Shown here one piece after another: positions 4,562 through 21,598 of a stretch of 43,058 nt of DNA. The translations under genes were made by a program, and so were the position numbers. The notes under the pieces are model-generated. The model was not told the DNA's origin, ran no database searches, and saw only the letters and a list, made by a program, of their open reading frames with translations. Numbering within the stretch: position 1 is the stretch's first letter; the number at the start of each line of letters is the position of its first letter. The DNA comes from a virus: the IMG/VR virus record IMGVR_UViG_3300025759_000187, positions 1-43,058 of that record; one strand, 5' to 3'.

Positions 4562-6307
4562 CTACAGGAAAGCAGAAGACTGGTCAAGATCGAAGGAGCA
4601 CCAGCCTTCGACTTTAGCGTCATCGTCAGTACACCACTCATCAAGGTCTTCTAGATCTCGCTTTCTCTTCTCGTTTGCTGCGTTTCTTGCAATCGTATCT
4701 GTCAGATAGCGACTTGCCATCTCAAGAGCATCAATGCGGTCGTCATGAGGCAGACATCCGCGAGTCTCTTCTAGGTGGCACCACTGCCAGAAGAGGTTTC
4801 GGGCACGCGCCCTGTCTTCCGAGTCGTTAGCCAGCTTGCTGGACTGCTGGTCGATGACGCGCGTGTGGAAAACGAAGCGGTGGTTCTCGGAAATAGGGGA
4901 GAGGGTTTCGAGAATACGAAGTTCCTTCCGCATAGTGTTACGCACTTCTTCGATTTGGCAGGGCCAGATGCGTTGAAGGACAGGCTTCATTAGCTCTGTG
5001 AACGCACCGTCACCAAAGTTGCTTTCAACAAGTACGGTATGCACCTTGTACTTGCGAGCTTCCCTAGCAATAGCCTCCAAGGCGGGCTGAGAGTACGATC
5101 CGGGGATGCCGCGCACTGAGTGTACGAACTGGTAGCCGCTGAGGGAAGAGACCACGGCCACACCTGTCTCGTCAGCGCCTCGACCCGAAGGGTCAACCGA
5201 CATAACTGTATGCTCGAAAGGGACTTGCACACCGTCCTCGGACCCAGGGCTGTAGAATCCGTCGCCCGGTAGTCCGGGGTTGTCGTATTGAAGGCGGTTG
5301 GCGGGGTGATTGCTGTGCAGGTAGATCTCTTTTGCGGACTCTTCGTGGAACTCAGTAAACATACAGTCACGGATCTTAAGCGGAAACTTCTCCGCATCGG
5401 ACAGGTCCGTGCTCAGCAGGTACTGGCGGTTGTAGCTGGCGCGGCTGAACCGCATCTTGAGCCCCGCGATCTCCACACCCGTGAAGCGTGTCGGCTCCAT
5501 CGGGGTGCCGGGAGGAACGTCAGCAAGACGGCAAAGGTCTGCCAGCCTGTGAGTTTCTGTGCTAGCGTTGTAGCCGTAGGCTTCCTCAACTGAAGGTTCA
5601 GGCTTTTCAATAGGCCAAACGCGCGAGTCGTAGCCTAGCGTTTCTAGATTACGGTAGATCGTGTGCGTACTCTGTGGCGTACCGAGCACACGCACCGTGG
5701 GGTATACATCGAGTTCAGGGTTAGGGGGCAACAGCAGCGCGGAAATCTCCTCGATTCGCCCTAGCAGCTTCTCGCGTAGCGCAGGCGTGTCGCTGTTGTT
5801 CGGAACCTCAACGTCATCTAGAATGATGACTGACCCGCGGTCACCCGTAATGGTGCCCCCGATACCCTTACTGTTGACTGACGGGCTCTTCTTGACAGTG
5901 GCGCAGCCGCACTGGAAGGACACCGCGGAGTCTTGGTCGCCACGTGCAGCGTCCGGGCGTAGGTGGTTTAGTTCCGGCACCTCGTCGATCAGGCGGCGAC
6001 CGAAGCGGCAGATCTGGTCAGCCGTGTTCTTAGCGGCGCTGAGGATGACGACGATCTCGTCCGGGTTGAGATACAGTCGCCACAGGTAGTAGCCTACAGT
6101 GATGTACGTTTTACCCGCACCTCGGAAGGCTTGGATCTGTAGGTGGGTCGGGCCGAACTGTAGGTAATCGCAGAAGTCCGCTTGGATCGGGGTCAGCTTG
6201 GGCAGACCCGCGTAGCTCCAGATAAGCCGAGCGAAGTTACGGAATAGACGAAACGGGTGGTCGTCCGGTAGCTTGTCAACTAGCGGCTTAAGCGGATAGT
6301 CTTCCAT
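4562..6307 (-). CDS. terminase large subunit (T7 gp19-like)
   Basis: A 581-residue DNA-packaging ATPase and nuclease that pumps concatemeric DNA through the portal and cuts it. The Walker A motif RGAGKT is at about residues 62-67 and Walker B in VIILDDVEV. The C-terminal nuclease acidic residues are visible in MSVDPSGRGADETG, VLVESNFGDGAF and HDDRIDALEMA. The length matches T7 gp19. The ATG at 6307 shares a base with the stop of the small zincin gene (TGATG). A TTG one codon earlier is less likely. It is the last gene of the leftward late operon, before the terminator at 4497-4527. Confidence 0.95.
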   Translation of the reverse strand: MEDYPLKPLVDKLPDDHPFRLFRNFARLIWSYAGLPKLTPIQADFCDYLQFGPTHLQIQAFRGAGKTYITVGYYLWRLYLNPDEIVVILSAAKNTADQICRFGRRLIDEVPELNHLRPDAARGDQDSAVSFQCGCATVKKSPSVNSKGIGGTITGDRGSVIILDDVEVPNNSDTPALREKLLGRIEEISALLLPPNPELDVYPTVRVLGTPQSTHTIYRNLETLGYDSRVWPIEKPEPSVEEAYGYNASTETHRLADLCRLADVPPGTPMEPTRFTGVEIAGLKMRFSRASYNRQYLLSTDLSDAEKFPLKIRDCMFTEFHEESAKEIYLHSNHPANRLQYDNPGLPGDGFYSPGSEDGVQVPFEHTVMSVDPSGRGADETGVAVVSSLSGYQFVHSVRGIPGSYSQPALEAIAREARKYKVHTVLVESNFGDGAFTELMKPVLQRIWPCQIEEVRNTMRKELRILETLSPISENHRFVFHTRVIDQQSSKLANDSEDRARARNLFWQWCHLEETRGCLPHDDRIDALEMASRYLTDTIARNAANEKRKRDLEDLDEWCTDDDAKVEGWCSFDLDQSSAFL

Positions 6308-6597
6308 CAATGTTCACCAAAGATCAAGCGGTACAGTCCTGAGTAACACACACCCCACACAGCATTAGCCTCAGGACCGTAGTAGCCGTTTACGCAGGCG
6401 TGTGCGTATTCATGGCAGAGAACTTCCGCCCGCTGATCCGCATCCACGGCAGTCGAAATGCAGATGACATGCCCATCTTCGTCAGAATAGTCGTAGGTGC
6501 CTTCAACGTCAGACAGGTCTTCAAGTTTAAGAGTGACTTTGGAATCTAAGGGATAGTGGTGCTGTATTACGGAGAATGTAATCCACAGATCAGCCAT
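6307..6597 (-). CDS. small zincin-like metallopeptidase (HExxH)
   Basis: A 96-residue protein with the zinc metallopeptidase signature HEYAH at residues 62-66, in the context VLCHEYAHACVNGYYG, followed by a C-terminal helix ending LYRLIFGEH. The start at 6597 was chosen because ATGGCTGA overlaps the stop of the upstream gene. A longer reading to 6732 would overlap that gene by over 140 nt. It sits between the terminase genes, where T7 has the Rz-type lysis gene 18.5, and no other endolysin is visible. Cleavage of the peptidoglycan stem peptide is therefore possible, as is a host-protein protease role. The substrate is unknown. Confidence 0.75.
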   Translation of the reverse strand: MADLWITFSVIQHHYPLDSKVTLKLEDLSDVEGTYDYSDEDGHVICISTAVDADQRAEVLCHEYAHACVNGYYGPEANAVWGVCYSGLYRLIFGEH

Positions 6598-6889: not shown

Positions 6890-7100
6890 TACTAACTCTA
6901 ACGTCCTCAAAATCTAGGTTCGACCAGTCGCTAGTCTTGGCCTCGTTCGGGACATTAAAGCCTTGAGTAAAGGTGGCTCCACCGCGCGAAGACCTGTCAT
7001 TAAGGTACTTACGACACACCTCTAGCTCTGACGCAGTAATGTCGTCTTGTTGAAGTTTCTCCAGCACGCGCTGGTACATCAGGTCGTCAGGGTCGATCAT
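6864..7100 (-). CDS. probable terminase small subunit (T7 gp18-like)
   Basis: A 78-residue protein, MIDPDDLMYQRVLEKLQQ at the start, with an N-terminal helical segment (residues 3-32), a Gly/Ser turn and a charged tail. T7 gp18 (89 residues) recognises DNA and recruits the large subunit. The identification rests on size, helical start and position directly after the gp16-like gene and before the large subunit. Sequence alone is weak evidence. It overlaps the giant ejection-protein gene by ATGA. Confidence 0.6.
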   Translation of the reverse strand: MIDPDDLMYQRVLEKLQQDDITASELEVCRKYLNDRSSRGGATFTQGFNVPNEAKTSDWSNLDFEDVRVSKREGQRTD

Positions 7101-10100
7101 TGGTAAAGAGAAGGTCTTGCCGCTGCGCGGCGGGCACGGGAAATGCGACGGGCCTGCTTGTACTGGCTGGCAAGCTCAGGTTCTTCTTTCAGCATTTCGC
7201 GGAAAGCCTTGTCGCGGAATCGTCGGATCTCTGCTTCGATCATGCGAACCCGCGGACTCACGTTGCCGTCGTCGTCAAGGTACGGGGAGATTGACTGGTA
7301 CTTCTGTGACCCGATAATGCGCCTGAGTGACTGCCGCAGGTCCATGCCACGCAGTTTGATCTCTGTGGATCGCTGTTGCCAGCGGTCGTATAGAGTGCGA
7401 CCATTACGCATCAAGCTTTCATCCATCATGTCTACTTGCTTGTACTTGCGCGGAGCAAGTTGCCAAGCGTTAGACAGCCGGGCAATCTCCGACGAAATCT
7501 TCTGGTCGTTGATCGTGCGAACGTTAGTCGGGGCGAAGTCGAACAAGATGCTGTCGCCCACAAGTTCGCGCTTCACCTTGTAGCCCAGCAGATCTCTCCG
7601 AGAATCTTTCACCTCATCAGTCCAGCCCGGAATAGACACAAGCATTTTATCCGCCCATGTGCGGGTGGCGCGTAGGTCCTCGTCACCGTTGATGTGGTCA
7701 GCATACTTCGCAGCATCGCGGACAGAGTTAGGGATCAGTAGCGAGCGCACTCGATCCGACAGCCAGCGGTTCGTGTGATCCATGTCGCCAGACAGAATCT
7801 GGAACAGGTCACTAAGACCTCGGGTGAAGTTCTTATCCGTAAGCTGACGGACCAGAGAGCCCGACAGCGCAGCAGTAGCTGCACTCATTCCAGCCTCAGC
7901 AGTCTCATATTCATTGCTGTTGCGGTAGTAATGCGCGATCTGCACAGAGTCAGCCAGAAGGCCAAGCCACGAAGCAATGGGTTCCACTCTCTGATATGAG
8001 AAGTATTGGTCTCCGACCCGCACACTGTAAGGTTGCCAGCCTGCGTTAATCATAGCCCGCTTCATCTGCAAGTCTTTCGGCCCGCCACCAGTGATCGTCG
8101 GCAGGACTTGAGACTCTGTGGGCACCACCATGCCATCGCGGGACAGAAGCGCACCAAACGAACCTACGACCATTGAAGCCATGTACATGTTCGTTGCCGC
8201 AGCTTGCGCTCGCTCCGGGTTTGAGTGCCGCATTTGCTGTAGAAGGGCCTCAACTCCCGGCAGTTGACCGAAGCCTGTAGCCTGTCCCGCCCGCACCATT
8301 GCCTCCAAACTGCCACCAACCGTGTTCTCAAGGCCCACAGCGGCAACGTTAACCGGAACAGTCAGGAACGGGGCGAAGAAGCGCAGCGACGGGTGCTTGC
8401 GAACCATGCGGGTGGCGCTTGCAGCTAGGCGTGTAGCCCCCTGCGTGAACCGACTCGCAACTTCAGTCTCACTTTCGGCAAGCTCTTGCACCGGGCGGTT
8501 GAATGCCACTCCTTGTGCCCGCACCCGCGCCTTATCAACGTCGGCGCGGAGCAACTCATGGTTTGTACGAGTGCTTTCAATCTCGCGCAAGACGGCTTGA
8601 TTGATCCCAACCTCGTCAATGTCCTCAGCCCGACTGGCTCTCTTAAAGATCTCGTCGCCTAGGAACTGCTGCTCCATCTTTTCCGGCTCCTTCATGACGA
8701 CAACAGCCGTCTGATAAGCCTTCTCAGCAGCCTCAGCGTGGTCAAGCCCAGCAGCAATGTGCCGTTCGTACAGGTCAGACTCCAGCTTAGCTTGATAGAC
8801 CGCAAGCTGGGACACCCGGTCGATCATCGGCATCACATGCTTGCCGGGTAGAGTGGCAACAGACGTAGCCCCCGCGGCCCGGACAATCGCTCCACCGACA
8901 ACATCCCCAGTCAGGTCACCAAGGCGCTGCCCAGCACGCTGAATCATGCTGGGGTTATCTAGGCGGTAACGCACAGCAAGGCCAGTTTGCCGCATCATCG
9001 TCTGAAGCTCATCACGCCCAGCAGCATTGAACACTTTCTTCGTGTTCTGCATCGCGTACCGCATAGACTTGAACATCACACGGTTCTCCCGCTTGACGGC
9101 ATCTACAATCTTTTGCATGTTGGCGTCACCATCCGCCGCCGACTGCACATTCACTTCGCCCAGAATGTTGCGGGCCATCCGGTACGGCTCCACAAGGAAA
9201 GGCGAAGCCAGCGCAGTGGTGATAGTCTTGACACCGCTAATGATGTTGACTGCGTTAAGGTCAGCCAGTTGGGACAGGCTGCTTTTAAGTGTCCACTTAT
9301 CAACAAGACCGTCTACCTTTTCCGCGAACTCACCGATGTTGGTTGAGCTTTCGTAGGCTCGAATAACCTTACGCTCGAAAGCTTTGAGGTGTCGCTCAGC
9401 AGACTTGTCCGTCCCGGCACGCACGATAAGTTCGTTGTACACCTCATGGATCGGTCGTCCTTCAACGTCAATGCCGATCTTACGTTCAGCGTAGGTGTCG
9501 AGACTTTCAGTAATCCGCTGCACACCCGTCCGCTTTTGGAACGACTTAAGGCCACGTCCAAAGTTACTGGACACCTGCCTGTACCCTTCAAGGGCCTCGA
9601 ACATCGTACCAAGCGCAACACCTAGAGCACGCCGTGAGCCTGCGTCTTCGGGTGCCTTGCCGTCCTGAATTGCGCGGGCAAGATCATGGATATCCTTACC
9701 CAGCTTCTCCGAGAAGCGGCGAGACTTGCGAGCCCAGGAAGCAAGGGTGAGAAGCTCTTTCGGGCGGTTCTTAAGACGCCCCAAGTGCTCCCTCGTTTCA
9801 GTGACGTTCCGCGCCAGCGCATCTTGATCTTGCTTCAGAGTGTTGCTGGCAGACACCACAACCTCGTCCACATTGGTTGCTGCATTAACGTCTTGCCTGA
9901 GTGCGTCATCAGGATCAAGGTCGTCCAGCAGCCCGCGCAAGTCGTCCATTTCGTCAGCTTGCGTGCGCGTCACTAGCTTGTCGAAGACCTTACGCATCTC
10001 CGGGTTGATGCGAACGTTAATAGAAGAGCCCCGCACACGGTCGTAGATGGCACGCATGTACGCAGCCATCTTCTTGAACATGTTCTCCATCGCAGGGATA

Positions 10101-12847
10101 GGAGCCTTACCGTCGCGAAGGTACTTCTCAAAGCCGACAGCAAACCGCTCTTCTGCGGCCTCGTCCCACACGCCGTTCTTTGCGCCAGCCCATTTTTCAG
10201 CAACTGCAATGTCGTCCTCCGAAATGCCCTGCCGCTGCTGGATGTCGATGTCACGGTTAAACAGGCGGCGGCGAGCAACGTGAGCAACTTCGTGGACGCC
10301 TGTTGAGAAGTTGGCGGATTCAAAGCCTTCGATTAGCGCACGCCCGTCTTCAAGAAAGCTGACCTGTCCTTGAATTTCCGCGTTGCGCTGGTACATGCGC
10401 GTAATTTCAAAGTCTTGGTCGCGGAATAGAACGTAGTTGAAGTCCGCGTCTTTTAGTGTATCGTAGTTCCTTTTGTTTCTGATACCTCCGTTTTGATATT
10501 TGATGCCGTAAATTCCGTAATCTGCGAGTCGGAGTGATGCGGTTTTTTGAGCGTCAAAGAGGTCCTTTGCCTTTCGAAGGTTCTTCTTTCCGCTCACGTT
10601 AATCATCAGTTGCCTGTAAAAGCGACCACCGTCTCCGTCAATAAACTCAGAGAACATTTCAGCGCCAGGGTCTGTTCCGAAAACTTCCTGTAGAATGCGC
10701 TGAACGTTAGGGTGTTGTTTGCTAAACGGGCGATCCCAAAGAAGCATTTGATCTTCTTTGATCTTCATATCGACTTCAAAGGTTCGCCCAGGCTGGCCAA
10801 CATAAGCACGCCACTCAACGTTAATATCTTGTGTTGGAGATTTAACTTTTTCATTGACGTTGTTAAGTAGCTTTTTCCCAGTCTCGTATTTTTGTTTTGT
10901 GTTTTTGTACGCAATAGAGGAAGTGTCTCCTCGGGATTCAAAGCGCGACATTGACGATCTAAAGCTTTTGACTAGACCTTCAAGCTCGGCCTCCATGTAG
11001 TCCCCCAGATCTTCTGGTGAAAGCTGACGGTCGTTTCTAAACGAAAGCTCTGACAAAATATCCGCTGCGGCGGTAAGTTCGTCTAGCGGGCTCAACTCCT
11101 TACCTTCCCTGGCTAGTCTTTCGTTTTGGTTTCTATGGCTCTGAAGCAGACCTTGAGCAGTTTCCTCGTCAATGACAAATTCTTCATCCACCACTTTCTG
11201 GGGCGGACCTTGAATGTCCGGATTATTTTCACGCCAAAAGCCAGGATAAGTCAAATTGTCGCCGCCGATTGCAAACGCCGCAGAAGGCATACGTGCTGAA
11301 TTTTGTCGGCGGTAGTGTCGGGCAACCCACTCTGCGCCACCAAAGTAAACACCCCAGCCAAACGCCTGAGCACCTTCCCCGGCTCGTCCCCCAACGTAAT
11401 TGACGGAAAGCGACGTGTGCTTGCCGCCCGTGCCGTGGAAAACAGTTTGCTTTAGAGAGTCCGGGTCAACCGCCTCGCCACGGCGGAACAGGAAGGTGTC
11501 TCGGTCAAACCCAATAGCGTCAATGAGGCCCGCGATGGCCGACGCCTCCTCGTTGGTGACACCAAGAGCACCAACGATGTCGTCCTCGAACGTCCAGTTC
11601 TTCTCGTTATGTTTGCCCGCCTCCTTAAGACGCCTGCGGTCAAGAACCTTTTTTGCCTGATCACTCAGGTTCTGATAGGTGACGTAGTTGTAGATCTGGC
11701 CGTACCGCAGACCCCAACCATTGGGCTGGTTGAAAGTTCCCACATCCCCATACGTGATTCCTTCCCCGTCGAAGATCTCGTCTTGCTGCTTGGCCCGCTC
11801 CGACAGCTTGGTGGAGTCAATGTCCATTGCCCGACCGTCAGCCCGTTGGGCACTGGTGGCAGTGCCCGTCACGTAATCAATGGTCTCGCGTGCCGTACCC
11901 TCAAGCCGCAGCAGTGACAGAAAGTCATCGCGGTCGATAGCGCCCTCGACGTAATCTTCAAAGATTGCCTTGGCCCGCTCCCCCGCCTCCGGGTCCATGC
12001 GGTGCAGATCCAGATTGTCCAGAGCTTCCGGGCTCATACCGGATTCATCAAGAGGCTCCTTGAGTGATGCGTCAATCAGTTCCTCTTCGGCTTCCTCCTC
12101 GATCTTAGCTCGCTGCTCCGGTGTAAGGTTACCCACAGTGCGACGAGCCGCCCTGTAGATAGCCTTCATGCTTTGGAACACAGGCTCAGCCACAGCGCCA
12201 GCGACCATGCCATCCAGCACGTTCTTAAGCCTACCCTCCATGATGGAGTCGTCGCCGTCGCCTTCGATGTAGTTGAACAGTTCGTTCTGTAGAGGCTCGT
12301 ACTGATTGATAATGCTGACCAGACGCCCTTCATCGGCAGCGAACGCAGCGCCGTCAACAAGCGGAGCCTGAGCAAAGAACTCAAATCCAATCCGCTTCAG
12401 ACCTTTGGCCTTCATACCTTTCTCGTACATGCGCTTACCTTTGAGCGCAAGGCTACCGCCTCGCATCAGCATGGTAGCGATGGCCCCACCTGCCAGCGCA
12501 GCCGCGCCTCCGGTCGCCACGCTGACGGCACCGAAGATGGCGGTGACAGCCATGTACGTCAGGGCGCTGCCTGCGAGGTACTGACTAAAGCCTCCAGCGA
12601 TCTGCCCAACAGTGGTGTCGGGTGCGTCCACTAGGTTCCAATCAACCTTGTCGTCCTCAGCCCCGAACGTGTATTCCGCCAGCCCGACGAACGAGCGGAT
12701 GGCTTCCTCAGCCCCGTTGACGACACCTAGGCCCACATCTCCAGCGGTATCTAGGAAGCCTTCACCGAAGAATCCATTGTCTTCAACTTGCCCGCCAACT
12801 TGTCCGTACAGTTGCTGGTAATAAGGATCAGTGTTGCGTGCAGTCAT
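7097..12847 (-). CDS. giant gp16-like ejection protein with ADP-ribosyltransferase and zincin domains
   Basis: A 1916-residue internal virion protein D (T7 gp16 is 1318). Residues about 90-135 are hydrophobic. Residues about 467-815 resemble the ADP-ribosyltransferase domain of phage polyvalent proteins: HGT at 471-473, then GAGEGAQAFGWGVYF-like spacing with Tyr501, and a closing strand NYVLFRDQDFEI from 804. Residues 852-856 are HEVAH, with a candidate third zinc ligand at Glu899/Glu900 in AEERFA, as in metallopeptidases of polyvalent proteins. The C-terminal third is helical and contains the FFAPFLTVPVNV motif common in such proteins. No lytic transglycosylase motif is seen. It is presumably ejected with DNA, as gp16 is, and may modify host proteins. 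The ART-coding DNA is AT-rich compared with the gene's ends. Confidence 0.85.
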   Translation of the reverse strand: MTARNTDPYYQQLYGQVGGQVEDNGFFGEGFLDTAGDVGLGVVNGAEEAIRSFVGLAEYTFGAEDDKVDWNLVDAPDTTVGQIAGGFSQYLAGSALTYMAVTAIFGAVSVATGGAAALAGGAIATMLMRGGSLALKGKRMYEKGMKAKGLKRIGFEFFAQAPLVDGAAFAADEGRLVSIINQYEPLQNELFNYIEGDGDDSIMEGRLKNVLDGMVAGAVAEPVFQSMKAIYRAARRTVGNLTPEQRAKIEEEAEEELIDASLKEPLDESGMSPEALDNLDLHRMDPEAGERAKAIFEDYVEGAIDRDDFLSLLRLEGTARETIDYVTGTATSAQRADGRAMDIDSTKLSERAKQQDEIFDGEGITYGDVGTFNQPNGWGLRYGQIYNYVTYQNLSDQAKKVLDRRRLKEAGKHNEKNWTFEDDIVGALGVTNEEASAIAGLIDAIGFDRDTFLFRRGEAVDPDSLKQTVFHGTGGKHTSLSVNYVGGRAGEGAQAFGWGVYFGGAEWVARHYRRQNSARMPSAAFAIGGDNLTYPGFWRENNPDIQGPPQKVVDEEFVIDEETAQGLLQSHRNQNERLAREGKELSPLDELTAAADILSELSFRNDRQLSPEDLGDYMEAELEGLVKSFRSSMSRFESRGDTSSIAYKNTKQKYETGKKLLNNVNEKVKSPTQDINVEWRAYVGQPGRTFEVDMKIKEDQMLLWDRPFSKQHPNVQRILQEVFGTDPGAEMFSEFIDGDGGRFYRQLMINVSGKKNLRKAKDLFDAQKTASLRLADYGIYGIKYQNGGIRNKRNYDTLKDADFNYVLFRDQDFEITRMYQRNAEIQGQVSFLEDGRALIEGFESANFSTGVHEVAHVARRRLFNRDIDIQQRQGISEDDIAVAEKWAGAKNGVWDEAAEERFAVGFEKYLRDGKAPIPAMENMFKKMAAYMRAIYDRVRGSSINVRINPEMRKVFDKLVTRTQADEMDDLRGLLDDLDPDDALRQDVNAATNVDEVVVSASNTLKQDQDALARNVTETREHLGRLKNRPKELLTLASWARKSRRFSEKLGKDIHDLARAIQDGKAPEDAGSRRALGVALGTMFEALEGYRQVSSNFGRGLKSFQKRTGVQRITESLDTYAERKIGIDVEGRPIHEVYNELIVRAGTDKSAERHLKAFERKVIRAYESSTNIGEFAEKVDGLVDKWTLKSSLSQLADLNAVNIISGVKTITTALASPFLVEPYRMARNILGEVNVQSAADGDANMQKIVDAVKRENRVMFKSMRYAMQNTKKVFNAAGRDELQTMMRQTGLAVRYRLDNPSMIQRAGQRLGDLTGDVVGGAIVRAAGATSVATLPGKHVMPMIDRVSQLAVYQAKLESDLYERHIAAGLDHAEAAEKAYQTAVVVMKEPEKMEQQFLGDEIFKRASRAEDIDEVGINQAVLREIESTRTNHELLRADVDKARVRAQGVAFNRPVQELAESETEVASRFTQGATRLAASATRMVRKHPSLRFFAPFLTVPVNVAAVGLENTVGGSLEAMVRAGQATGFGQLPGVEALLQQMRHSNPERAQAAATNMYMASMVVGSFGALLSRDGMVVPTESQVLPTITGGGPKDLQMKRAMINAGWQPYSVRVGDQYFSYQRVEPIASWLGLLADSVQIAHYYRNSNEYETAEAGMSAATAALSGSLVRQLTDKNFTRGLSDLFQILSGDMDHTNRWLSDRVRSLLIPNSVRDAAKYADHINGDEDLRATRTWADKMLVSIPGWTDEVKDSRRDLLGYKVKRELVGDSILFDFAPTNVRTINDQKISSEIARLSNAWQLAPRKYKQVDMMDESLMRNGRTLYDRWQQRSTEIKLRGMDLRQSLRRIIGSQKYQSISPYLDDDGNVSPRVRMIEAEIRRFRDKAFREMLKEEPELASQYKQARRISRARRAAARPSLYQ

Positions 12848-15762
12848 CGGTTACTCCGGTTAGTCTCGATGAGGAGAAAGTGATTGACAAGAGCGCCAAG
12901 CGCAGCCCGCTCAGCAAGAGGCATGTCTCGGTCTAGTTGCGACGGCTTCACGCCGCGACGAATTTCAAAGACCTTCTTAGCGTTACTAAGCGCGTTCGCT
13001 ACAACAGGGTTGCGATCAGCCGCTTGCTGCAACTCTGAAGGGTTAATAGCTGAGAGACCTGTTTTTGTTGAAGTTGTTAGAAACGAACTTCGTGCAATAA
13101 GAGCTTTTTGTACATAGCCGTCTCTCAACTGCATGACAGTTGCACGCGACACATTTTCAGGTGATCCGAAAGTGACGGCGTTAGCAAGGTTGTCGTATTC
13201 TTTACCTTTGATCGTTTTGGGAACACGAAAGGACGTAATCGGCATTTTACTGATGTCGTAAGAGATAGCGTCAGGCCGACCTTCAAAGGCCCCAACTTTG
13301 AGATTTGGGAATCGTGAAGGGTTTTCTCGGATTACCTCAGCAAGTCCCTTATCCTTGAACAGCGTTTCAAGATGCCCCCTACCCGAATAAGCAAGTTGCC
13401 CTGCTAGAAACGGTTGCTTAGGGATTAGATTGACGAGAGTCCTTTCCAATTGCCCCTGCATCTCAGGGCTAAAGAATCCGTAAGTGTCGTCATAAACACT
13501 TTGCTCATTAACAATGTTGAGCAGGATCTCATCTTCAATGAAATTATAAAGTTGCTCGCGATGTTGTTGTACAAACTTTGAGCCGATCTTACGTTGATTG
13601 AGGTATGCGTCATCAAAACGATCTTTTGTTTTTGCACCTTTACCGTAGTCGCCTGCCTTTGGTTGGTAATCAGTTCCAAACAGAAGGCGGCTAATGTGAG
13701 CGGCTTGAAGGTAAACAGAGTCTAGAGCGCGTCCTCCGTACTGGACCTCTGTGATGCGTGTACCCGTGGGCTCACCCTCGGCGGTCTCACCTGTCGGCTC
13801 TAGAATTGGACCACTAATTTCATAATCTTCTAGATCTCTAACTGCGCGCAGAACCGACGAATTTTTTCTACGAGCAAGCTCGTTGCGTTCTATACCTGTA
13901 AAGACTAGACGCCCGCTAGGTACTTGCGCCCTTTCAGCAATTACCTCCTCAGTTTCTGTTCTAATTTCTTCTTGGTCAGTTGCAGCCAAAACGTCTAGTT
14001 GAACTGGGGCGTCTGCTTCGACAAGCTTCTGTAGACTTTGCGCGATTTGTTCTCGCATCTCAACAGTCGAAATCTCCCCCGCTTCATGCCGCTTTTCAAT
14101 CGATCGAAGACTGCCCCCCATAAACTCCGCAAGAATTTTGTGGGCGTCTTGCGTGATTTCAACTTGCTCATCAGGGTCCTTGAGGATGAAAGGAGTAATC
14201 AGCGTACCCTTTTGTGCCATCGAGATAGCAGACAGGAGCGCGTTTCTGTTAGTAACTACAGTTCGCTCATCTCTACGCTTGTAAGCTTGGTCCGTAATTA
14301 TCTTTATTGCCTCCGGGCGATCATCGGGCCGGAAGTTAGTATTAACAAACTTCTCTATCTCCTCAAATGATTCACCTCTCAAGCCCATTTCGTAGGCTTC
14401 GAGCGCGTTACCTTTCACCCTAGCCAAGTTGTTAGCTTGAGTCCGATCTTCGCTACCAGAATCGTCTCGCGCAAGGCGGCTATGGTGATTCCCAACCATC
14501 GTCTCAAAGCGGTAACCCAAAGCCGGGTCTTCCTGCATGATGTCTTCGATGTACTCACGCTGCCTGTCTCGTTGCTCAGGCGTTTGATCGTCTGGGCGCA
14601 CGTGATACCAGTCAGTACCCATAGACGCCTCAAGAATAAGTTGGGCGGCTTTTTCATTTTGTTCGTTGTCGCCTTGACCCGCGTAAGCCTTTTCTCGCCG
14701 CGTTTCATCAATAAAGGCGTCCGACTTCTCTAGCACCTTTACCATAGCTGCGCTGCCCTCAGAGAAGATCTTGTTCCCAGAGCCTGACTTAGCCTCAAGG
14801 AACGTGTCTCGCAGTGCCGCTAGAGCTTCTTCCTGATCGTCGAAGTCTTTGACATCAATCTGGATCTGCCGACTCATCGCGCTATAGAGGTTAAGCAGCG
14901 CCTCTCTGCGCTCTTCCGGCGTCCCCGTCTCTAGCGTGCCGTCCCACCACTGAGTCAACTCCGTAGACAAGATACCAACAGACTCGTCGATATCTAGATC
15001 CTCGTTACCGTCAGCCGTTAGCTTTGATGTCACATCACTTAGAGCCAAGAAGGCGGCGGAAGATTTACCCTCGACAATCTTTGCCGACGCCCGCGTCTCT
15101 ACCTCCGATGTTGCCGCAGCCCGCGCCTTGGCGACGGTCTCCGATAGAAGCTGCGTACCTAAAGTCTGGCCGTACTCAGAGAGGCCACCGAAGAAGTCAT
15201 TCTGCTCGCTCTCTAGGATCTGTGCAAGCTTCTGGTCCGCAGCCATCGCCGCCCACTCACCACCCGTCATGATGGTACTGGCGTCAGGGAACGCAAGCTG
15301 CTGCTCAATAGATTCAATGACCTCAGGTAGGCGTGACATAATACCTGCCTGAGCCTCAGCAGCGCGTCCCCGCACAACAGCTTCTTCAAAGCTGCGAACA
15401 AAGAAGTCATTGTCAAGCTTGGACAGGTCCCCAACGGTAGACGCCTTTGCTAGGTCCGCACGTAGCTGCCGCGGCGTCTTACCGCTATCCACGTACTCAG
15501 CTACAACCTTATTGAAATCTTCGCCCGCAGCAACTCGGACTCCAATTTTAGTCGCAACCTCAGAGACTCTTTTGTTCTCTGCCTTTTGCTCGGTGCGGGC
15601 AAGATCTGCAATAGTCTGTAGAAACTTGTCTACTTCTGGTGCCGCCGACTCATAGCCTTCTGTCCTTTGGATAGCGTTGGACGTAGGCGTAAACGTCTCC
15701 AAGGGCCTGACGGTCGGCTGCACCATAAAGGGCCTTAGCCTTTGAGGATCTTGTCTTGCCAT
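12844..15762 (-). CDS. internal virion protein C (T7 gp15-like)
   Basis: A 972-residue, largely helical and charged protein, larger than T7 gp15 (747). In T7, gp15 forms with gp14 and gp16 the internal core, which is ejected to build the trans-envelope DNA channel. The assignment rests on gene order (gp14-like, this gene, gp16-like), length and helical composition. No enzymatic motif is recognised. The middle of the gene (about 13000-14500) is visibly more AT-rich than its ends. It overlaps the gp16-like gene by ATGA. Confidence 0.85.
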   Translation of the reverse strand: MARQDPQRLRPFMVQPTVRPLETFTPTSNAIQRTEGYESAAPEVDKFLQTIADLARTEQKAENKRVSEVATKIGVRVAAGEDFNKVVAEYVDSGKTPRQLRADLAKASTVGDLSKLDNDFFVRSFEEAVVRGRAAEAQAGIMSRLPEVIESIEQQLAFPDASTIMTGGEWAAMAADQKLAQILESEQNDFFGGLSEYGQTLGTQLLSETVAKARAAATSEVETRASAKIVEGKSSAAFLALSDVTSKLTADGNEDLDIDESVGILSTELTQWWDGTLETGTPEERREALLNLYSAMSRQIQIDVKDFDDQEEALAALRDTFLEAKSGSGNKIFSEGSAAMVKVLEKSDAFIDETRREKAYAGQGDNEQNEKAAQLILEASMGTDWYHVRPDDQTPEQRDRQREYIEDIMQEDPALGYRFETMVGNHHSRLARDDSGSEDRTQANNLARVKGNALEAYEMGLRGESFEEIEKFVNTNFRPDDRPEAIKIITDQAYKRRDERTVVTNRNALLSAISMAQKGTLITPFILKDPDEQVEITQDAHKILAEFMGGSLRSIEKRHEAGEISTVEMREQIAQSLQKLVEADAPVQLDVLAATDQEEIRTETEEVIAERAQVPSGRLVFTGIERNELARRKNSSVLRAVRDLEDYEISGPILEPTGETAEGEPTGTRITEVQYGGRALDSVYLQAAHISRLLFGTDYQPKAGDYGKGAKTKDRFDDAYLNQRKIGSKFVQQHREQLYNFIEDEILLNIVNEQSVYDDTYGFFSPEMQGQLERTLVNLIPKQPFLAGQLAYSGRGHLETLFKDKGLAEVIRENPSRFPNLKVGAFEGRPDAISYDISKMPITSFRVPKTIKGKEYDNLANAVTFGSPENVSRATVMQLRDGYVQKALIARSSFLTTSTKTGLSAINPSELQQAADRNPVVANALSNAKKVFEIRRGVKPSQLDRDMPLAERAALGALVNHFLLIETNRSNR

Positions 15763-15763
15763 A

Positions 15764-16342
15764 CTACGTTAGGGGCTTACCTGTGAATGCGTTAATTCGT
15801 TGACCGCCTTCACCGTACCCCACACCAGACATGTAGCCTGTCGCTGCGGAGGTGCCGACGTTGAGAAGAGTGCCCAGCATGTTGGGCATTGGAATCGGTG
15901 TAGGCTGCGCTGCATTAATACGACCTTGTGTCTGTGCGCGTTCAGCCAGTTTCTGGTTTTCGAGGTCTTGCTGCGTGAACTCACGCTGCTTGGCGATGGA
16001 TGCGTACCGCAGCGTTTCCACCATACGCACCTCTTGGTTCAAATCCTGCATAGACCCGCCTTCCACGCCCGCCGCTGCTTGGCTCGCGCGGCTACCACCT
16101 TGGGCGTAGTACGCCTCAGCCGCCGCCTCGCGCATCTGCTGCCCAGTCGCGTAGTCTTCTTGGGACTCACGCTGCCCAAGCATACGCATAGAGTTAATCA
16201 TTGCTTCTGAAGCAGCAGCAACGTTTCTTTTCGCAATCTCTTGGTTTGCGCGGTTCGTCTGCTTAATCGCGCTACGCTCAGACATGGCACCAAGAAGGGA
16301 ATTTCCCCCCATAGCCATTGCCATTGCAGTGGGACTACACAT
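15764..16342 (-). CDS. internal virion protein B (T7 gp14-like)
   Basis: A 192-residue protein, matching T7 gp14 (196). It starts MCSPTAMAMAMGGNSLLGAM, an Ala/Met/Gly-rich segment, followed by a long Gln/Ala-rich helical region (QTNRANQEIAKRN onward) and a Gly-rich C-terminus. gp14 inserts in the outer membrane during ejection in T7. The start at 16342 was chosen because AGGAGG lies 8 nt before it. The longer reading to 16465 would run deep into the upstream gene. It overlaps the stop of the gp13-like gene by 8 nt. Confidence 0.85.
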   Translation of the reverse strand: MCSPTAMAMAMGGNSLLGAMSERSAIKQTNRANQEIAKRNVAAASEAMINSMRMLGQRESQEDYATGQQMREAAAEAYYAQGGSRASQAAAGVEGGSMQDLNQEVRMVETLRYASIAKQREFTQQDLENQKLAERAQTQGRINAAQPTPIPMPNMLGTLLNVGTSAATGYMSGVGYGEGGQRINAFTGKPLT

Positions 16343-16835
16343 TCGCGGACCTCCTGTGTGGATAATTGTTGCCGTAACGCAAGTAAAGAGAGAACTTCTC
16401 GTCGTTAATATATGAGTGGGCGGCGCGTCTAAACCCAGAGCGCAGCAACCAGCGGCAGTGTACAAGGTTTTTAGACATTACAAAGTTACCATACACGCCG
16501 TAAAGCTCGTCTAGAAGTGGGAAGATGTACCTGCGAGCATAGGCAGTCATTGCCCAACCGTACTTTTCAAACAGGTTGTCGTCCGCAAGCAGCCACACGT
16601 AGGCCAAACCAGACCGCACGTTACCGGACAGCCAGTTACCGTGACCCCATACGGCATGGATCACCTTGTCCTCCTCCGTACTGATGACAAACGAATACTC
16701 TGAAGTCTCGATAGACTTAGACAGAAGAAGCCCTGGATCTTCTGTGCCATTCCAGCACAGCCGTAGCTCCTCAAGGTCATGCTGACGCAGCGACGGTCCT
16801 AGCGCATACCCATCATCTGGGTGCGCGGGCTCCAT
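16335..16835 (-). CDS. internal virion protein A, GNAT-like (T7 gp13 position)
   Basis: A 166-residue protein whose layout resembles GNAT acetyltransferases: an N-terminal strand-helix unit (RQHDLEELRLCW), central strands (SFVISTEEDKVIHAVWGHG, SGLAYVWLLADD), then helices and a late FVMSKNLVHCRWLLRSGFRR segment. In marine T7-like phages the gp13 slot is often filled by such proteins. Whether it acetylates anything is unknown. The start at 16835 shares a base with the gp12 stop (TAATG). A longer reading to 16883 would intrude on gp12. Confidence 0.75.
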   Translation of the reverse strand: MEPAHPDDGYALGPSLRQHDLEELRLCWNGTEDPGLLLSKSIETSEYSFVISTEEDKVIHAVWGHGNWLSGNVRSGLAYVWLLADDNLFEKYGWAMTAYARRYIFPLLDELYGVYGNFVMSKNLVHCRWLLRSGFRRAAHSYINDEKFSLYLRYGNNYPHRRSANV

Positions 16836-19800
16836 TAGAAGACCCCGGAAACGCCTGACTGTCGGTTCTGCGTTGACACCCATTCAATGCCTGTGATGTT
16901 GGAGGGGAACGGACTGTCGTTCGTAATGGACATCCGCAGGTTGTGCGCGGCTCCATGCAGCGGAACCCGAACGGTGCCGGACTTGATGCTGTCAATGTCT
17001 TCGCTATCAAAGCCTTCGACAGGTCCGATTCCAATGGAACTGCTCTCGTCGTTGCTGAAGGTAGTAGTATAGCTGCTACCTGCTTTATGATCCAACACGA
17101 CTTGAAAGTAGCGCGAGCGATCAAACGACACTCTAGCTTCTGAGTTTACTGTGCGTCTTCCGCGGGTAGGTGTGCCGTCCTGAGTGCGGGGCAGCACTCG
17201 GTTAGCTGACCACTTAAACGTGTAGGGAACACCGAACCAAACTTTTGTGTTAGTTGGTACGCCACGCACAATGATAGAGTTAGAGCCGCGGTCTAGAACA
17301 GTAAGTTCAGTGCCCGGTTCAATGGCACCATCCACGGCTGTGACTGCCGTGATAGTGGGGCTAGTGTCGGGGTCGTATACAGCCGCCGTGGAAAACGTGT
17401 ACGTAGTTGTGTCTTGATTGCCGTAGGAGGGGTTGTCCGGAGTAAAGGTTACGGTAATTCCACCACCTGAACCACCGAAATACTTCTTACGGTCCAAATG
17501 CATTAAGAGATCTGAATCTTCGTCAGTCTGGCCGGGACCAAACTCAATCTTTTCGAGTGCCGTGCCGTTCTCGGCCCCGTTTTCGTAGAACATAACAAGG
17601 TACAGCGTCTCGTTGAGCATCACCATATCCTGTACTTCTCCGGTAAACGTCCACTTATTCCAAGCAGCAAAGCTGTACTCAGTATCGGACTGCTTTAGAT
17701 ACTTGAAGCAGTATAGCGTGTTAGGGTCAGCCGCCGAGTGGGCGAAAGCAATGCTATCGTTCGGGTTAGTGACGATGCGAACGCTCTCATTTTGTGGGAT
17801 GAGTCGCGGAACGTTTTGCGTCAGATCAACAGGGGCAAAATCATTTAGGTCGCCAAAGGGTATAAGCTCCCTGATCCCTACATACGCCGCGTTGCGGTAG
17901 GGCATCATGATGGAGCGACCAAACGGCACGGGCGGTCCATCAGTCAAACCTTCAAACCTAGAGACAAGCGGAGCTTCAATGGTGCGCGGGCTTAGCACGC
18001 CGGATCGGCTACCTAGGGCAATCTGACTGTCTTGGGTAAACGCCAGTAGGCGCTCGTTCATGGGCACCACGTAGTTGATAACCCTTCCGCCGCCCTCCGT
18101 GGACGCCACATCAATACGCTCATCGTCAGGCACTGACAGTTGCGTAGTGCGCCAGAAGTTGTATAGCTCTCCCGTCTGCGACATGCAGACGTTAGCTTCA
18201 CTGGTGAAGCCTAGACGGCCTTGCCAGTAAAAGATCTCTTGCAGCTTTTTCCCGACAAACGATGGCGCTTTGTTGTTTTTAGTTGAGCCAACAGTGCGCT
18301 CACCCCACTCGTCCGTAAAGCGAACGTCGAAGAAAATGCTGTCAGCGTTGCTAGTGTACGTCCCAAGGTTATCATCGACAGAGCGTCGAATCATGACAGG
18401 CATGGTAGACTTCGTGAGCTTTCCCTTACCCGCCTCCGGTAGCGCAGCCTCTAGCCACAGTCCGGGGCCAAAGTGCGAAACGTAGTCTGGGTTATTGAAC
18501 TGGTCAAAGTCCCGCTCTGTCTCTTCGGCCCACTTGTCGGACGAGAACCGAACCCAGTAGCCTGCGTCACGCACACCTTCCAGGCCAGACACGTACACTA
18601 GAGCACCGTGGCGGAACTCTAGCGGCAGGTCCGTGATGTCTTCCACTTCCGAAGTCCAGCCCGTGGCGTAGGTGTTGCCCACGCTGTCGGTGACGCTGAA
18701 CTCAAGAATGTCTTGTTCAGTTTCGATTAGGAATGACGAGCCACCCGTCCGAAGTGCGGGGGTGACAGTGTCGATTCCCGTTGTAGCGGTGCCGCGGGCT
18801 TCGATCTGCTCACGCAGGGTGTGGCAGACAAACTCTGTATTGATGGGGTAGCTGCGGTTAACTTGAACTTTTGGTTCGGTGTTAGTAAATTTACTCGTGT
18901 TAGCGCTTACCAGAGCAGCAGGCGGCACAATGCCGAAATAAAGGTCGGCGGTCGAGCTTCCTTGAATCAGCTTAGCCACCCGCGTTGCCGGATCAAAGGC
19001 AAACGCTCCTACGCCAAAATCCGCAACGTCGGCTTGGACGCCACTAGCAGGATCAGCAAAGAGCATTTGGCTCGAATCGACAAACGGCTCGGCTTCTTGA
19101 AACACTGAACTGCCGCTAGACATGTCAGTTTCAAGAATCCATCCATCAACAACGGGGTCATGATTAAACTGAACCCAAGTTCTAGGATAGTCGTTCTCCG
19201 CTGCTGGACCTAGAGCATAGGTAATCTTGTTCGTACCAGTGCTGTATTTAAACACCGACTCTTTCGGAGTGCCGCCGGGGTTGGCAACCTTGATCTTAAT
19301 GGTAACCGAGGTTCCCCAGTTGAACTGCCGAATAAACACACCAGCAGTTCTTTTGGGTACGTCCCAAGATACTCGCGTCGGACCTACTTCCTCGGCCACG
19401 ATGACGTTGCGATTGACAACGAAAGCAGTATCTACAACGACAGCCGCTCGCAAGTCGTCGCGTCCTGCGGCGTAAGTTCCAAGAGCGCCGAAGTATTCAC
19501 CAGCACTACCTGCTACCGTTTGCAGAGCGTAGCCGCCCGCTGCGTTTTCGGTGTCACGGACAGGCACTTCGTCCCCGTCCGCATCAAAAATGCGGACTGT
19601 GCCCCCGCCGCACATGATAAGATATTGCTCATCGTCCCGATCCATAGTAAAGATGAATCGGTCAAGCTTGCCTGAACCCGTAATGGAGGCAACATGTTGC
19701 GACGGCATTCGCTTAGCCGCACCGTCCAGCGGACTAAGGTAAGCGTTCTCGCATTCGCGGGCTTGGTTAAGTAGGCGGGTCTCTTCAGGCTGCTGGCTAA

Positions 19801-19840
19801 GACCACCTAGAATATTTTTAGAAATCTGTGTGCTGGTCAT
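16835..19840 (-). CDS. tail tubular protein B (T7 gp12-like)
   Basis: A 1001-residue nozzle protein, longer than T7 gp12 (794). It opens MTSTQISKNILGGLSQQPEE, the pattern of this family's N-terminus, and continues as a beta-rich protein with many Asp/Asn/Gly turns. It forms the distal tail tube that carries the fibres. The C-terminal 250 residues are Thr/Ser/Gly-rich and may be extra surface domains. It is coupled by ATGA overlap to tail tube A and by TAATG to the gp13-like gene. Confidence 0.92.
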   Translation of the reverse strand: MTSTQISKNILGGLSQQPEETRLLNQARECENAYLSPLDGAAKRMPSQHVASITGSGKLDRFIFTMDRDDEQYLIMCGGGTVRIFDADGDEVPVRDTENAAGGYALQTVAGSAGEYFGALGTYAAGRDDLRAAVVVDTAFVVNRNVIVAEEVGPTRVSWDVPKRTAGVFIRQFNWGTSVTIKIKVANPGGTPKESVFKYSTGTNKITYALGPAAENDYPRTWVQFNHDPVVDGWILETDMSSGSSVFQEAEPFVDSSQMLFADPASGVQADVADFGVGAFAFDPATRVAKLIQGSSTADLYFGIVPPAALVSANTSKFTNTEPKVQVNRSYPINTEFVCHTLREQIEARGTATTGIDTVTPALRTGGSSFLIETEQDILEFSVTDSVGNTYATGWTSEVEDITDLPLEFRHGALVYVSGLEGVRDAGYWVRFSSDKWAEETERDFDQFNNPDYVSHFGPGLWLEAALPEAGKGKLTKSTMPVMIRRSVDDNLGTYTSNADSIFFDVRFTDEWGERTVGSTKNNKAPSFVGKKLQEIFYWQGRLGFTSEANVCMSQTGELYNFWRTTQLSVPDDERIDVASTEGGGRVINYVVPMNERLLAFTQDSQIALGSRSGVLSPRTIEAPLVSRFEGLTDGPPVPFGRSIMMPYRNAAYVGIRELIPFGDLNDFAPVDLTQNVPRLIPQNESVRIVTNPNDSIAFAHSAADPNTLYCFKYLKQSDTEYSFAAWNKWTFTGEVQDMVMLNETLYLVMFYENGAENGTALEKIEFGPGQTDEDSDLLMHLDRKKYFGGSGGGITVTFTPDNPSYGNQDTTTYTFSTAAVYDPDTSPTITAVTAVDGAIEPGTELTVLDRGSNSIIVRGVPTNTKVWFGVPYTFKWSANRVLPRTQDGTPTRGRRTVNSEARVSFDRSRYFQVVLDHKAGSSYTTTFSNDESSSIGIGPVEGFDSEDIDSIKSGTVRVPLHGAAHNLRMSITNDSPFPSNITGIEWVSTQNRQSGVSGVF

Positions 19841-20469
19841 GAAGAGTCCCTTGACTTAAACGGATCGTTGCCGAAGAACGCTGCACTACCCGTGTAGACA
19901 GAGCCTCCGCTAAGACCAGCGTGCATGTCAGGCGAGTCGAACATGCTGTACGCCCCTGCATCAAGATCGCCGTCAAGGATTAGGCGGCGAGCCTCACGCT
20001 CATCCATGATAAGTGATTGAAGAGAGTCGTCAGTTCCAACGTGGTACTGGTGGAACCGCCGCGCAGCCTTCTTGGTGATGTACGTCTTAACTTCTTCGAG
20101 AAGATCGTCCCACTCAATGAAGTAAATCGCCGTACCTTTAACGGCTTCACCGATAGCTTCCGTTTTGTTAAGTCGGTCGTAAATGAAACGACCGCGTGCA
20201 ATGTAGTACGGCACTTCTCGCGGGTCGAAGCGCAGCATTGTAGTCGGAATGGCTACCTTGTTCGTGAGTTCCGCTGCCTCAAGAGACACTTCGTACTCTG
20301 TGTTCCAGTGCCAGCCTTCGTTAAGAACTTCTCGGTGGCACGTATCAAGCTGCTGTACAGCTAGGGTTGCTTCAGCGGTAGTACCTGCCGCAATCGTCGT
20401 AACAGGCATCATGTCCGATGATGCGAGAATGAGGTTAACTGCCTCAAGTTCAGTCAGTCGTGAAGCCAT
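19837..20469 (-). CDS. tail tubular protein A (T7 gp11-like)
   Basis: A 210-residue adaptor (T7 gp11 has 196) that joins the portal to the nozzle. It starts MASRLTELEAVNLILASSDM and has the family's LDTCHREVLNEGWHWNTEY segment at about residues 41-59. It lies directly after the capsid gene and its terminator, as in T7. TAGGAT just before the ATG is a weak Shine-Dalgarno sequence. Confidence 0.93.
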   Translation of the reverse strand: MASRLTELEAVNLILASSDMMPVTTIAAGTTAEATLAVQQLDTCHREVLNEGWHWNTEYEVSLEAAELTNKVAIPTTMLRFDPREVPYYIARGRFIYDRLNKTEAIGEAVKGTAIYFIEWDDLLEEVKTYITKKAARRFHQYHVGTDDSLQSLIMDEREARRLILDGDLDAGAYSMFDSPDMHAGLSGGSVYTGSAAFFGNDPFKSRDSS

Positions 20470-20485
20470 ATCCTATAAATGTAGT

Positions 20486-20515
20486 GGCGGGCTGAAGCCG
20501 AAACTCCAGCCCGCC
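20486..20515 (-). terminator. hairpin behind the capsid gene (T-phi position)
   Basis: GGCGGGCTG (20486-20494) pairs perfectly over 9 bp with CAGCCCGCC (20507-20515), with a 12-nt loop. On the minus strand it is followed by ACTACATTTATAGG. T7 has its main RNA polymerase terminator, T-phi, at this position after gene 10, where it boosts capsid transcripts over downstream genes. There is no long U-tract, so termination is probably partial, as in T7. Confidence 0.7.
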
Positions 20516-20554
20516 GAGTCAGCAGCGAAGCTCCTACCAAAGGCAGGAACTATA

Positions 20555-21598
20555 TCAGGTGGTCAGCGTGATCGCGCACTCAGGGCGCAGAACACCGTGA
20601 CCCTCGACAAAGTAAGAAAGGATCAGGTCGCCCAGGATCTCTTCCTTACGGGTGCGCGAGGTCGTCAGACCCTGACGGCGCACAGAGCCGATGCAAGACT
20701 TGTGGAACGCCAGCGCCTTCACCGCGGTGAAGTCACGACCCGCGGCACTGTCAGAGTAATTCTCACCAAACGTACCTGCTTCGCTACCGACAGCGGCTTG
20801 GGGTAGGTGGTTGGTGTAGAAGATCTTGAAGCCAGCGATGCGGTTGATCGCCGTCTTGTCGCTGACATCTCCGTTCGGGCCGTTCTTGTTGGTCTCGTAC
20901 TTGATGAAGGGCGAGTCTTCGACCGTGAGCGCCGCGAAGTAATCTTGCGGCGTCATGGCAACATAGATTTCCTCCATCGGAACGTTACGCTCAGCCATGC
21001 GAGCAGCAGCAGCGCCGATAGTCTTGATAACCGACTCAGCAGCCGTCTTGTTGGCAAAGCCCCACGCAGTGCCGCCAGCGGTGGTGGCGCTAATGGTGCC
21101 ACCCTTCTCCACGCTACCAGAACCCAAAGGCTCCAGCGACGTGTCGAGGGCCGGGTCCGTCTGAGACGCAATGTGAATCAGTTGCAGAAGCTGCTTGTCG
21201 CGCTTACGGGCAAGGGCGTTGCCTTGCTCTTCAGCGAGACGGGAAGCGGCTTCCCAATGATTAATCATGTCATCCCAATCATCAGTAGTTCTAGCTGAAA
21301 CGAGCGGGCGGTCGATGAAGATCTCACGCTCGGCCATCTGAATCTGGTTCAGATAACCGTTCGCGGGGTCCAGCATGTTTTCGCCCCTGAGGTGGTATTT
21401 CGCCTCAGCGCGGCCCACAACTGGAAAGGTAAATGATTTCCCTGAGGAAATCGTTTGCACATCGACCATGCCTTCCATAACGTTTTTCGTTTGGAAGGTA
21501 TCGAGGACCCGACCGCTATACATCTTAAGGAATAGCGCCTCCTTGGGTCCGGAAAGTTGATTCTGACCGACAGCCGTCGGATCAATTTGAGAAACCAT
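20555..21598 (-). CDS. major capsid protein (T7 gp10-like)
   Basis: A 347-residue HK97-fold capsid protein (T7 gp10A has 345). Family features visible are the N-terminal LFLKMYSGRVLDTFQ segment, the GKSFTFPVVGRAEAKYH segment, and DRPLVSARTTDDWDD with the following long helix. It has its own terminator downstream and a 144-nt non-coding leader upstream, the pattern expected for the most highly expressed gene. No strong Shine-Dalgarno sequence precedes the ATG (TTAATACT). There is no sign of a gp10B-type frameshift extension before the stop. Confidence 0.95.
   Translation of the reverse strand: MVSQIDPTAVGQNQLSGPKEALFLKMYSGRVLDTFQTKNVMEGMVDVQTISSGKSFTFPVVGRAEAKYHLRGENMLDPANGYLNQIQMAEREIFIDRPLVSARTTDDWDDMINHWEAASRLAEEQGNALARKRDKQLLQLIHIASQTDPALDTSLEPLGSGSVEKGGTISATTAGGTAWGFANKTAAESVIKTIGAAAARMAERNVPMEEIYVAMTPQDYFAALTVEDSPFIKYETNKNGPNGDVSDKTAINRIAGFKIFYTNHLPQAAVGSEAGTFGENYSDSAAGRDFTAVKALAFHKSCIGSVRRQGLTTSRTRKEEILGDLILSYFVEGHGVLRPECAITLTT

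Follow-up and report, generated by a model that had tools for sequence, protein, structure and literature searches.

A gp16-type ejection protein with a built-in ADP-ribosyltransferase-type and zincin-type module: a candidate exchangeable effector of T7-like phages

The ejection proteins of T7-like phages are usually viewed as a cell-wall cutter and a DNA channel. Phage T4 packs an ADP-ribosyltransferase (ART), Alt, in its head and injects it with the DNA; Alt stands apart from the DNA channel proteins and carries no zincin. It belongs to another ART clade (Alt/VIP2) than the one considered here (PMC9503650, PMC5512222). The polyvalent proteins, for example the N4-like virion RNA polymerase of Roseovarius Plymouth podovirus 1, carry a zincin-type metallopeptidase alongside an ART of the H-Y type in one large virion-associated polypeptide whose injection is predicted (PMC5512222). 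Here we analyze P0001, a gp16-like protein encoded by the IMG/VR virus record IMGVR_UViG_3300025759_000187, all 43,058 nucleotides of which constitute the window of this study. P0001 shares both the domain pair and the single large virion-associated polypeptide with the polyvalent proteins, and its presumed route into the cell with that of Alt. However, its carrier is a T7-type gp16 ejection protein, whereas that of Roseovarius Plymouth podovirus 1 is an N4-type virion RNA polymerase. The P0001 ART also differs from the polyvalent ARTs of PMC5512222 in having Arg in place of the strand-5 Asp, in falling under the Pfam thresholds, and in being exchanged between near-identical phages. Gp16 and internal virion proteins are not mentioned in the main text of that paper, and a literature search combining gp16, ejectosome and internal virion protein with ADP-ribosyl and polyvalent, which covered few subscription papers, returned no earlier description of this architecture. 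Polyvalent proteins and injected ARTs such as T4 Alt are thus already known, and the novelty is in the gp16-type carrier and the exchange of ART alleles. We give a probability of roughly 0.6 to the reading that P0001 is a gp16-type ejection protein whose built-in ART-zincin module serves as an ejected, exchangeable ART effector.

The features of P0001, in window coordinates, are as follows.

7097..12847, minus strand: gp16-like ejection (internal virion) protein P0001 with ART-type and zincin-type domains; single open frame from an ATG, 1916 amino acids
12068..12784, minus strand: N-terminal gp16 scaffold, residues 22-260, resembling internal virion protein D of Pelagibacter phage Gjalp and Roseobacter phage CRP-114 (sequence comparison)
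10379..11473, minus strand: ADP-ribosyltransferase-type domain, residues 459-823 (profile and alignment; fold via a relative)
11429..11437, minus strand: HGT, residues 471-473, ART strand 1, His invariant (motif and conservation)
11342..11359, minus strand: GWGVYF, residues 497-502, ART strand 2, Tyr501 invariant (motif and conservation)
10403..10438, minus strand: NYVLFRDQDFEI, residues 804-815, last ART strand, with N804 nearly invariant and R809 replaced by D in relatives (motif and alignment)
9959..10372, minus strand: zincin-type metallopeptidase domain, residues 826-963 (alignment)
10280..10294, minus strand: HEVAH, residues 852-856 (motif and conservation)
10139..10156, minus strand: AEERFA, residues 898-903, with E900 invariant and E907 likewise (motif and conservation)
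7106..8656, minus strand: C-terminal gp16 scaffold, residues 1398-1914, phrog_6651 internal virion protein and internal virion protein D (PHROGs and sequence comparison)

All motifs named in the initial annotation are present, although GWGVYF starts one residue earlier than the 498-503 given there. In composition shuffles of the protein, the pattern HG[TSG]-x(20-30)-GxGxYF never occurred (0/2000) and is therefore beyond chance, while HExxH appeared in 40 of 2000; conservation among relatives is the stronger evidence for these motifs. The relatives were collected by tblastn in viral contigs. H471, G472, G497, G499, Y501 and Y512 are invariant across the 120 non-identical relatives that span these positions, and the N804 column is occupied by Asn in 107 of 114. 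The Pfam family PF18760 (ART-PolyVal) was matched by 22 of 24 relatives and by 71 of 75 in a larger set (E<=0.01), with a few additionally matching PF00644 (PARP). Iyer et al. 2017 (PMC5512222) describe the family by a His, a Tyr and a strand-5 Asp, the first two of which correspond to H471 in strand 1 and Y501 in strand 2.

The ART fold was matched with a compact relative (L100) that has no insert, rather than on the domain of the window itself. Folded with 75 sequences, L100 gave a model with a predicted local distance difference test (pLDDT) score of 91.8. Its best Foldseek match in the PDB was 9k3a_B (E 3.2e-4, probability 1.00), followed by the Xre-RES toxin, ParT, tankyrase 2 and diphtheria toxin with E-values from 0.03 to about 1 and moderate to low probabilities; nearly all top PDB matches were structures of the ART superfamily.

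Several observations weigh against our reading of P0001. The protein itself did not match ART-PolyVal in Pfam even at E 10, and the scores printed for its relatives fall under the gathering cut-off of 31.2 bits. The column of the likely strand-5 Asp contains D in 67 of 75 sequences but Arg (R809) in the window protein and in that of contig L003, with D810 standing next to R809 in the former. The model of the window's own 536-residue segment was mediocre (pLDDT 68) and had no significant Foldseek match in the PDB. The scaffold showed no sequence match to a solved T7 gp16 in a search of PDB sequences with its C-terminal part, so that the tie to T7 itself consists of synteny and family annotation. 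Finally, the within-lineage ART swap described below was observed in one pair of contigs. The alignment suggests which residue of the last strand would be catalytic, and because that assignment is indirect we keep the claim at an ART-type domain related to ART-PolyVal. The ADP-ribosyltransferase proposed initially thus holds in its profile matches among relatives, its invariant His and Tyr, and the fold of a relative, and not in its strand-5 Asp; the profile matches expected of P0001 were found in its relatives, and the structural match in L100.

Other lines of search contributed little. Foldseek matches of the window model in BFVD include ART-PolyVal-like phage proteins; these were set aside as probably reflecting sequence kinship in part and hence not independent. 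The E-value of the window in a hidden Markov model of the ART was discounted as circular, since the window was part of the training set. Searches of PDB sequences with the ART by phmmer and by profile returned nothing significant, and scanning bacterial genomes with the ART-zincin alignment yielded distant relatives only.

The zincin-type domain follows the ART directly. Of 29 aligned relatives, 28 keep the HExxH residues and one has a gap there; E900, E907, Y909, G913 and P916 are invariant in all 29. Both HEVAH 852 and E900/E907 lie in predicted helices, that is, an HExxH helix and a second Glu-bearing helix. MPTase-PolyVal was matched in Pfam neither by P0001 nor by any relative tested; a profile search with the region gave a weak Spartan (SprT) match over the HExxH helix (E 0.11), and Foldseek with the 536-residue window model found no PDB match for the fold. 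The metallopeptidase claimed in the initial annotation is backed by its conserved HExxH and downstream Glu; structure search gave no confirmation of a zincin fold. The observations that had been named in advance as fatal to the two-enzyme idea did not appear: His, Tyr and HExxH persist in close homologues, and a match to the ART fold was obtained. The two domains are adjacent in 94 of 115 proteins that have both, a set biased by having been gathered with the ART-zincin pair as the query.

With respect to the carrier, residues 22-260 and about 1398-1914 of P0001 align in direct comparison to the two ends of the Gjalp and CRP-114 proteins; both come from marine Autographiviridae, and their annotations read internal virion protein or internal virion protein D. 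Since both scaffold ends match internal virion protein D, the ART and the zincin lie between two halves of a gp16-type scaffold. Residues 1467-1706 match phrog_6651, internal virion protein (E 1e-23); the PHROGs matches of P0001 were limited to the scaffold, apart from phrog_9880 over the zincin region, and Pfam detected no transglycosylase domain in it. The gene order is shared with T7 gp16 and with the Gjalp and CRP-114 proteins; unlike in P0001, no ART-zincin match was found in the latter two. Position and homology (phrog_6651, T7_gp14, Gjalp and CRP-114) therefore bear out the initial naming of P0001 as a gp16-like protein, and, on sequence data, support its assignment as a T7-like podovirus ejection protein of the gp16 type.

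The exchange of the ART was detected by comparison with contig IMGVR_UViG_3300007539_000875 (L003/L082), which represents the same kind of phage as the window. Nucleotide identity between the two is 98.5-98.7% over window positions 14000-21072 and 8969-10299, and 98.2% over 11621-12799. Two islands interrupt this similarity.

10340..11620: divergence island 1, the ART region; 51% nucleotide identity to L082, 44.3% at 10448-11432, with flanks at 98.7% and 98.2%
12800..13999: divergence island 2, roughly the last 40% of the gp15-like protein, at its C-terminus; nucleotide identity to L082 71.9%

Codon comparison of the gp16 gene outside the ART gives 12 synonymous and 7 non-synonymous differences over residues 1-400, and 14 and 3, respectively, over residues 860-1265; across the ART swap, the zincin remains about 99% identical. 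Within the ART, identity between the window and L003 is 24-42% in blocks of 50 residues, yet L003 retains the His, the GWGMYF box, NYVIF and the Tyr (the H471, Y501 and Y512 positions). The two ARTs are sisters in the tree (support 0.94) and are 2.9 substitutions per site apart. This divergence is far beyond what point mutation could produce in the time allowed by the flanks, and we conclude that the ART was replaced, probably, as the tree suggests, by one from its own clade. In the gp15-like protein, residues ~551-972 are 56-88% identical to L082 and the rest 94-100%; the gp15 C-terminus possibly co-varies with the ART. An assembly chimera in L082, which is a single assembly, was considered and rejected, as both islands are open in frame, homologous and bounded by gradual borders; the window side is covered by three contigs (L001, L083 and L169) at 99.9%.

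A second case involves more distant phages. Between L164 and L149, the ART half of the ART gene is 82% identical, whereas the capsid proteins are 31% and the tail tubes 27-32% identical, and the proteins in the gp14 and gp15 slots are not recognisably alike. Taken together, the swap between the window and L082 and the ART shared by L164 and L149 show that, within the ejection locus, the ART behaves as a mobile cassette.

A structural precedent comes from the best fold match. The sequence of 9k3a_B is ORF27 of Anabaena phage A-4L (L175, 20116-25269), a 1717-amino-acid protein annotated as 'tail protein', and the PDB entry is titled Cyanophage A4 pre-ejectosome, a structure credited to Hou et al. 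2025 as cited in PMC12810830. ORF27 adjoins the peptidase/transglycosylase ORF28, likewise a solved chain, named 'Internal protein'. ORF27 carries HGT at 1426 and GSGTYF at 1444 in an ART-like domain of residues ~1420-1620, and hhalign pairs this HGT...GSGTYF segment with the ART profile, at low formal probability. The fold match of L100 would fall on this HGT region, the search printing no residue ranges. ORF27 resembles P0001 in its podovirus ejection-protein slot, its ART-like fold match and its motifs, but lacks HExxH and has no detectable full-length sequence homology to P0001. Given the fold match, the motifs and the nature of the entry, an ART-like domain appears to be physically present in a solved podovirus ejectosome, and the A4 pre-ejectosome is a structure in which the idea of a virion ART can be examined now. 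Weak relatives of the ORF27 ART-like domain occur in Leptolyngbya and Phormidium podoviruses, some of them annotated as ParB-like partition nuclease.

We propose that the ART-zincin module would have been inserted between the N- and C-terminal parts of a gp16-type scaffold, and that the resulting protein would be packaged within the capsid core and leave it ahead of the DNA or together with it. At the very start of infection, the ART-type domain may use nicotinamide adenine dinucleotide (NAD+) to modify a host macromolecule, or may destroy NAD+, while the zincin most likely would cut the polypeptide and free the ART from the channel. Release of a neighbouring domain by a zincin was proposed by Iyer et al. 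for polyvalent proteins (PMC5512222), and P0001 may follow it by analogy. Phages of the same lineage would swap the ART wholesale and leave the scaffold and zincin nearly unchanged; such replacement suggests pressure from a variable host target or defence, and selection would then stand behind the exchange. If some T7-like ejection proteins do deliver enzymes, small phages own a first-strike effector system like T4 Alt, one that acts before any phage gene expression, and the swap between near-identical phages is a natural experiment with two alleles on one scaffold. A fuller version, with gp16 as a reloadable platform in which the near-invariant zincin frees the ART after ejection, the alleles track host targets or defences, and the gp15 C-terminus co-varies, is tentative, with the odds somewhat against it.

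The divergence islands might alternatively reflect ordinary mosaic recombination with no selection on the ART, which would be compatible with an effector role. We regard this as doubtful: phage genomes are generally mosaic, the swap comes from one contig pair and the gp15 C-terminus is divergent too, but the island coincides, inside one gene, with the ART domain, the zincin and scaffold remaining ~98.5% identical, and in the independent L164/L149 case an ART has moved between phages whose other virion genes differ greatly. It is unlikely that the module serves virion assembly, with the zincin trimming gp16 during maturation and the ART modifying phage or host proteins late without being delivered. 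Near-identity of the zincin across the swap is what a processing enzyme would show; trimming of this kind has been inferred for P1 DdrB, which is processed before packaging, and some metallopeptidase (MPTase) domains may act pre-packaging (PMC5512222). Against this, the MPTase-bearing virion RNA polymerase of N4 enters the virion unprocessed (PMC5512222), an ART-like domain is found in the solved pre-ejectosome, and wholesale replacement of the ART would not be expected from a purely internal role.

Two further alternatives concern the activity of the domain. A catalytically dead ART fold with a binding or structural role in the ejectosome seems improbable, since H471, Y501, Y512 and the GWGxYF box persist in L003 despite ~60-75% difference in the domain, and His and Tyr do so in all 120 relatives; Arg809 in place of the family Asp, and Asn804 rather than Glu, Asp or Gln at the opening of the last strand, speak for a dead fold, although Asp810 could compensate for Arg809. 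Least probable in our view is a domain acting mainly as an NAD+ hydrolase that drains or clears NAD+ for takeover or to counter an NAD+-based defence. The second-best fold matches of L100 are RES domains, known members of which degrade NAD+. The sequence family is, however, ART-PolyVal/PARP-like, with members predicted to be protein modifiers (PMC5512222).

Related architectures were identified in other phages. In L089, a 1500-amino-acid protein open at its 5' end fuses ART, zincin and gp16 C-terminus, with the terminase downstream, and in L088 a protein of 3443 amino acids contains ddrB-ParB, a weak LPD14, ART, zincin and a weak gp16 C-terminus; the ART-zincin-gp16 architecture therefore recurs. 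Rhodobacteraceae phage LS06-2018-MD07 (OP947163) encodes an ART protein of >3000 amino acids, annotated as a methyltransferase, directly after gp14 and gp15-like genes. L164 encodes the ART on its own, in a gene flanked by gp15 and by a gp16 that matches phrog_6651. Sulfitobacter phage phiGT1, an isolated lytic phage, encodes gp5 (MT584811; L166, 4918-6081), annotated as a hypothetical protein, in its head gene block; gp5 has an ART-PolyVal score of 30.0 against the cut-off of 31.2 and is 37% identical to the L164-type ART over the matched part. Like P0001, gp5 and the L164/L149 ART gene place an ART-PolyVal-type domain in a structural gene block, but as a separate gene, unfused to the ejection protein and with no zincin noted. 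PhiGT1 can be cultivated and so lends itself to tests of a virion ART.

The genes surrounding P0001 complete the T7-type assignment.

19837..20469, minus strand: tail tubular protein, gp11-like (phrog_446)
16835..19840, minus strand: tail tubular protein, gp12-like (phrog_457)
15764..16465, minus strand: gp14-like internal virion protein (PF24072 T7_gp14, E 2e-22, Pfam); the real start is probably downstream of the listed TTG
12844..15762, minus strand: gp15-like protein, 972 amino acids, assigned by position only
4562..6310, minus strand: terminase large subunit with a T7-type RNase H domain (PF22530)

Read along the minus strand, the genes run from the major head protein through gp11-like, gp12-like, a small internal virion protein, T7_gp14, gp15-like and P0001 to the terminase, which gives the T7-type arrangement gp11-gp12-gp14-gp15-gp16 beside the terminase. 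A T7-type RNA polymerase, a DNA polymerase and a primase/helicase are encoded elsewhere in the window, and relatives of the window phage are mostly marine. A tyrosine-recombinase-type integrase (35457-36278, minus strand; phrog_1, E 2e-32) adjoins the T7-type RNA polymerase gene; an integrase in this position in a T7-like phage makes a temperate lifestyle possible. Bases 601-624 of the window are present twice in L083, ~540 bases apart (window ~541-624 against L083 12448-13071), so that L083 has extra or rearranged DNA beside window position 600, upstream of a plus-strand tail-fibre-like gene at window position 1715.

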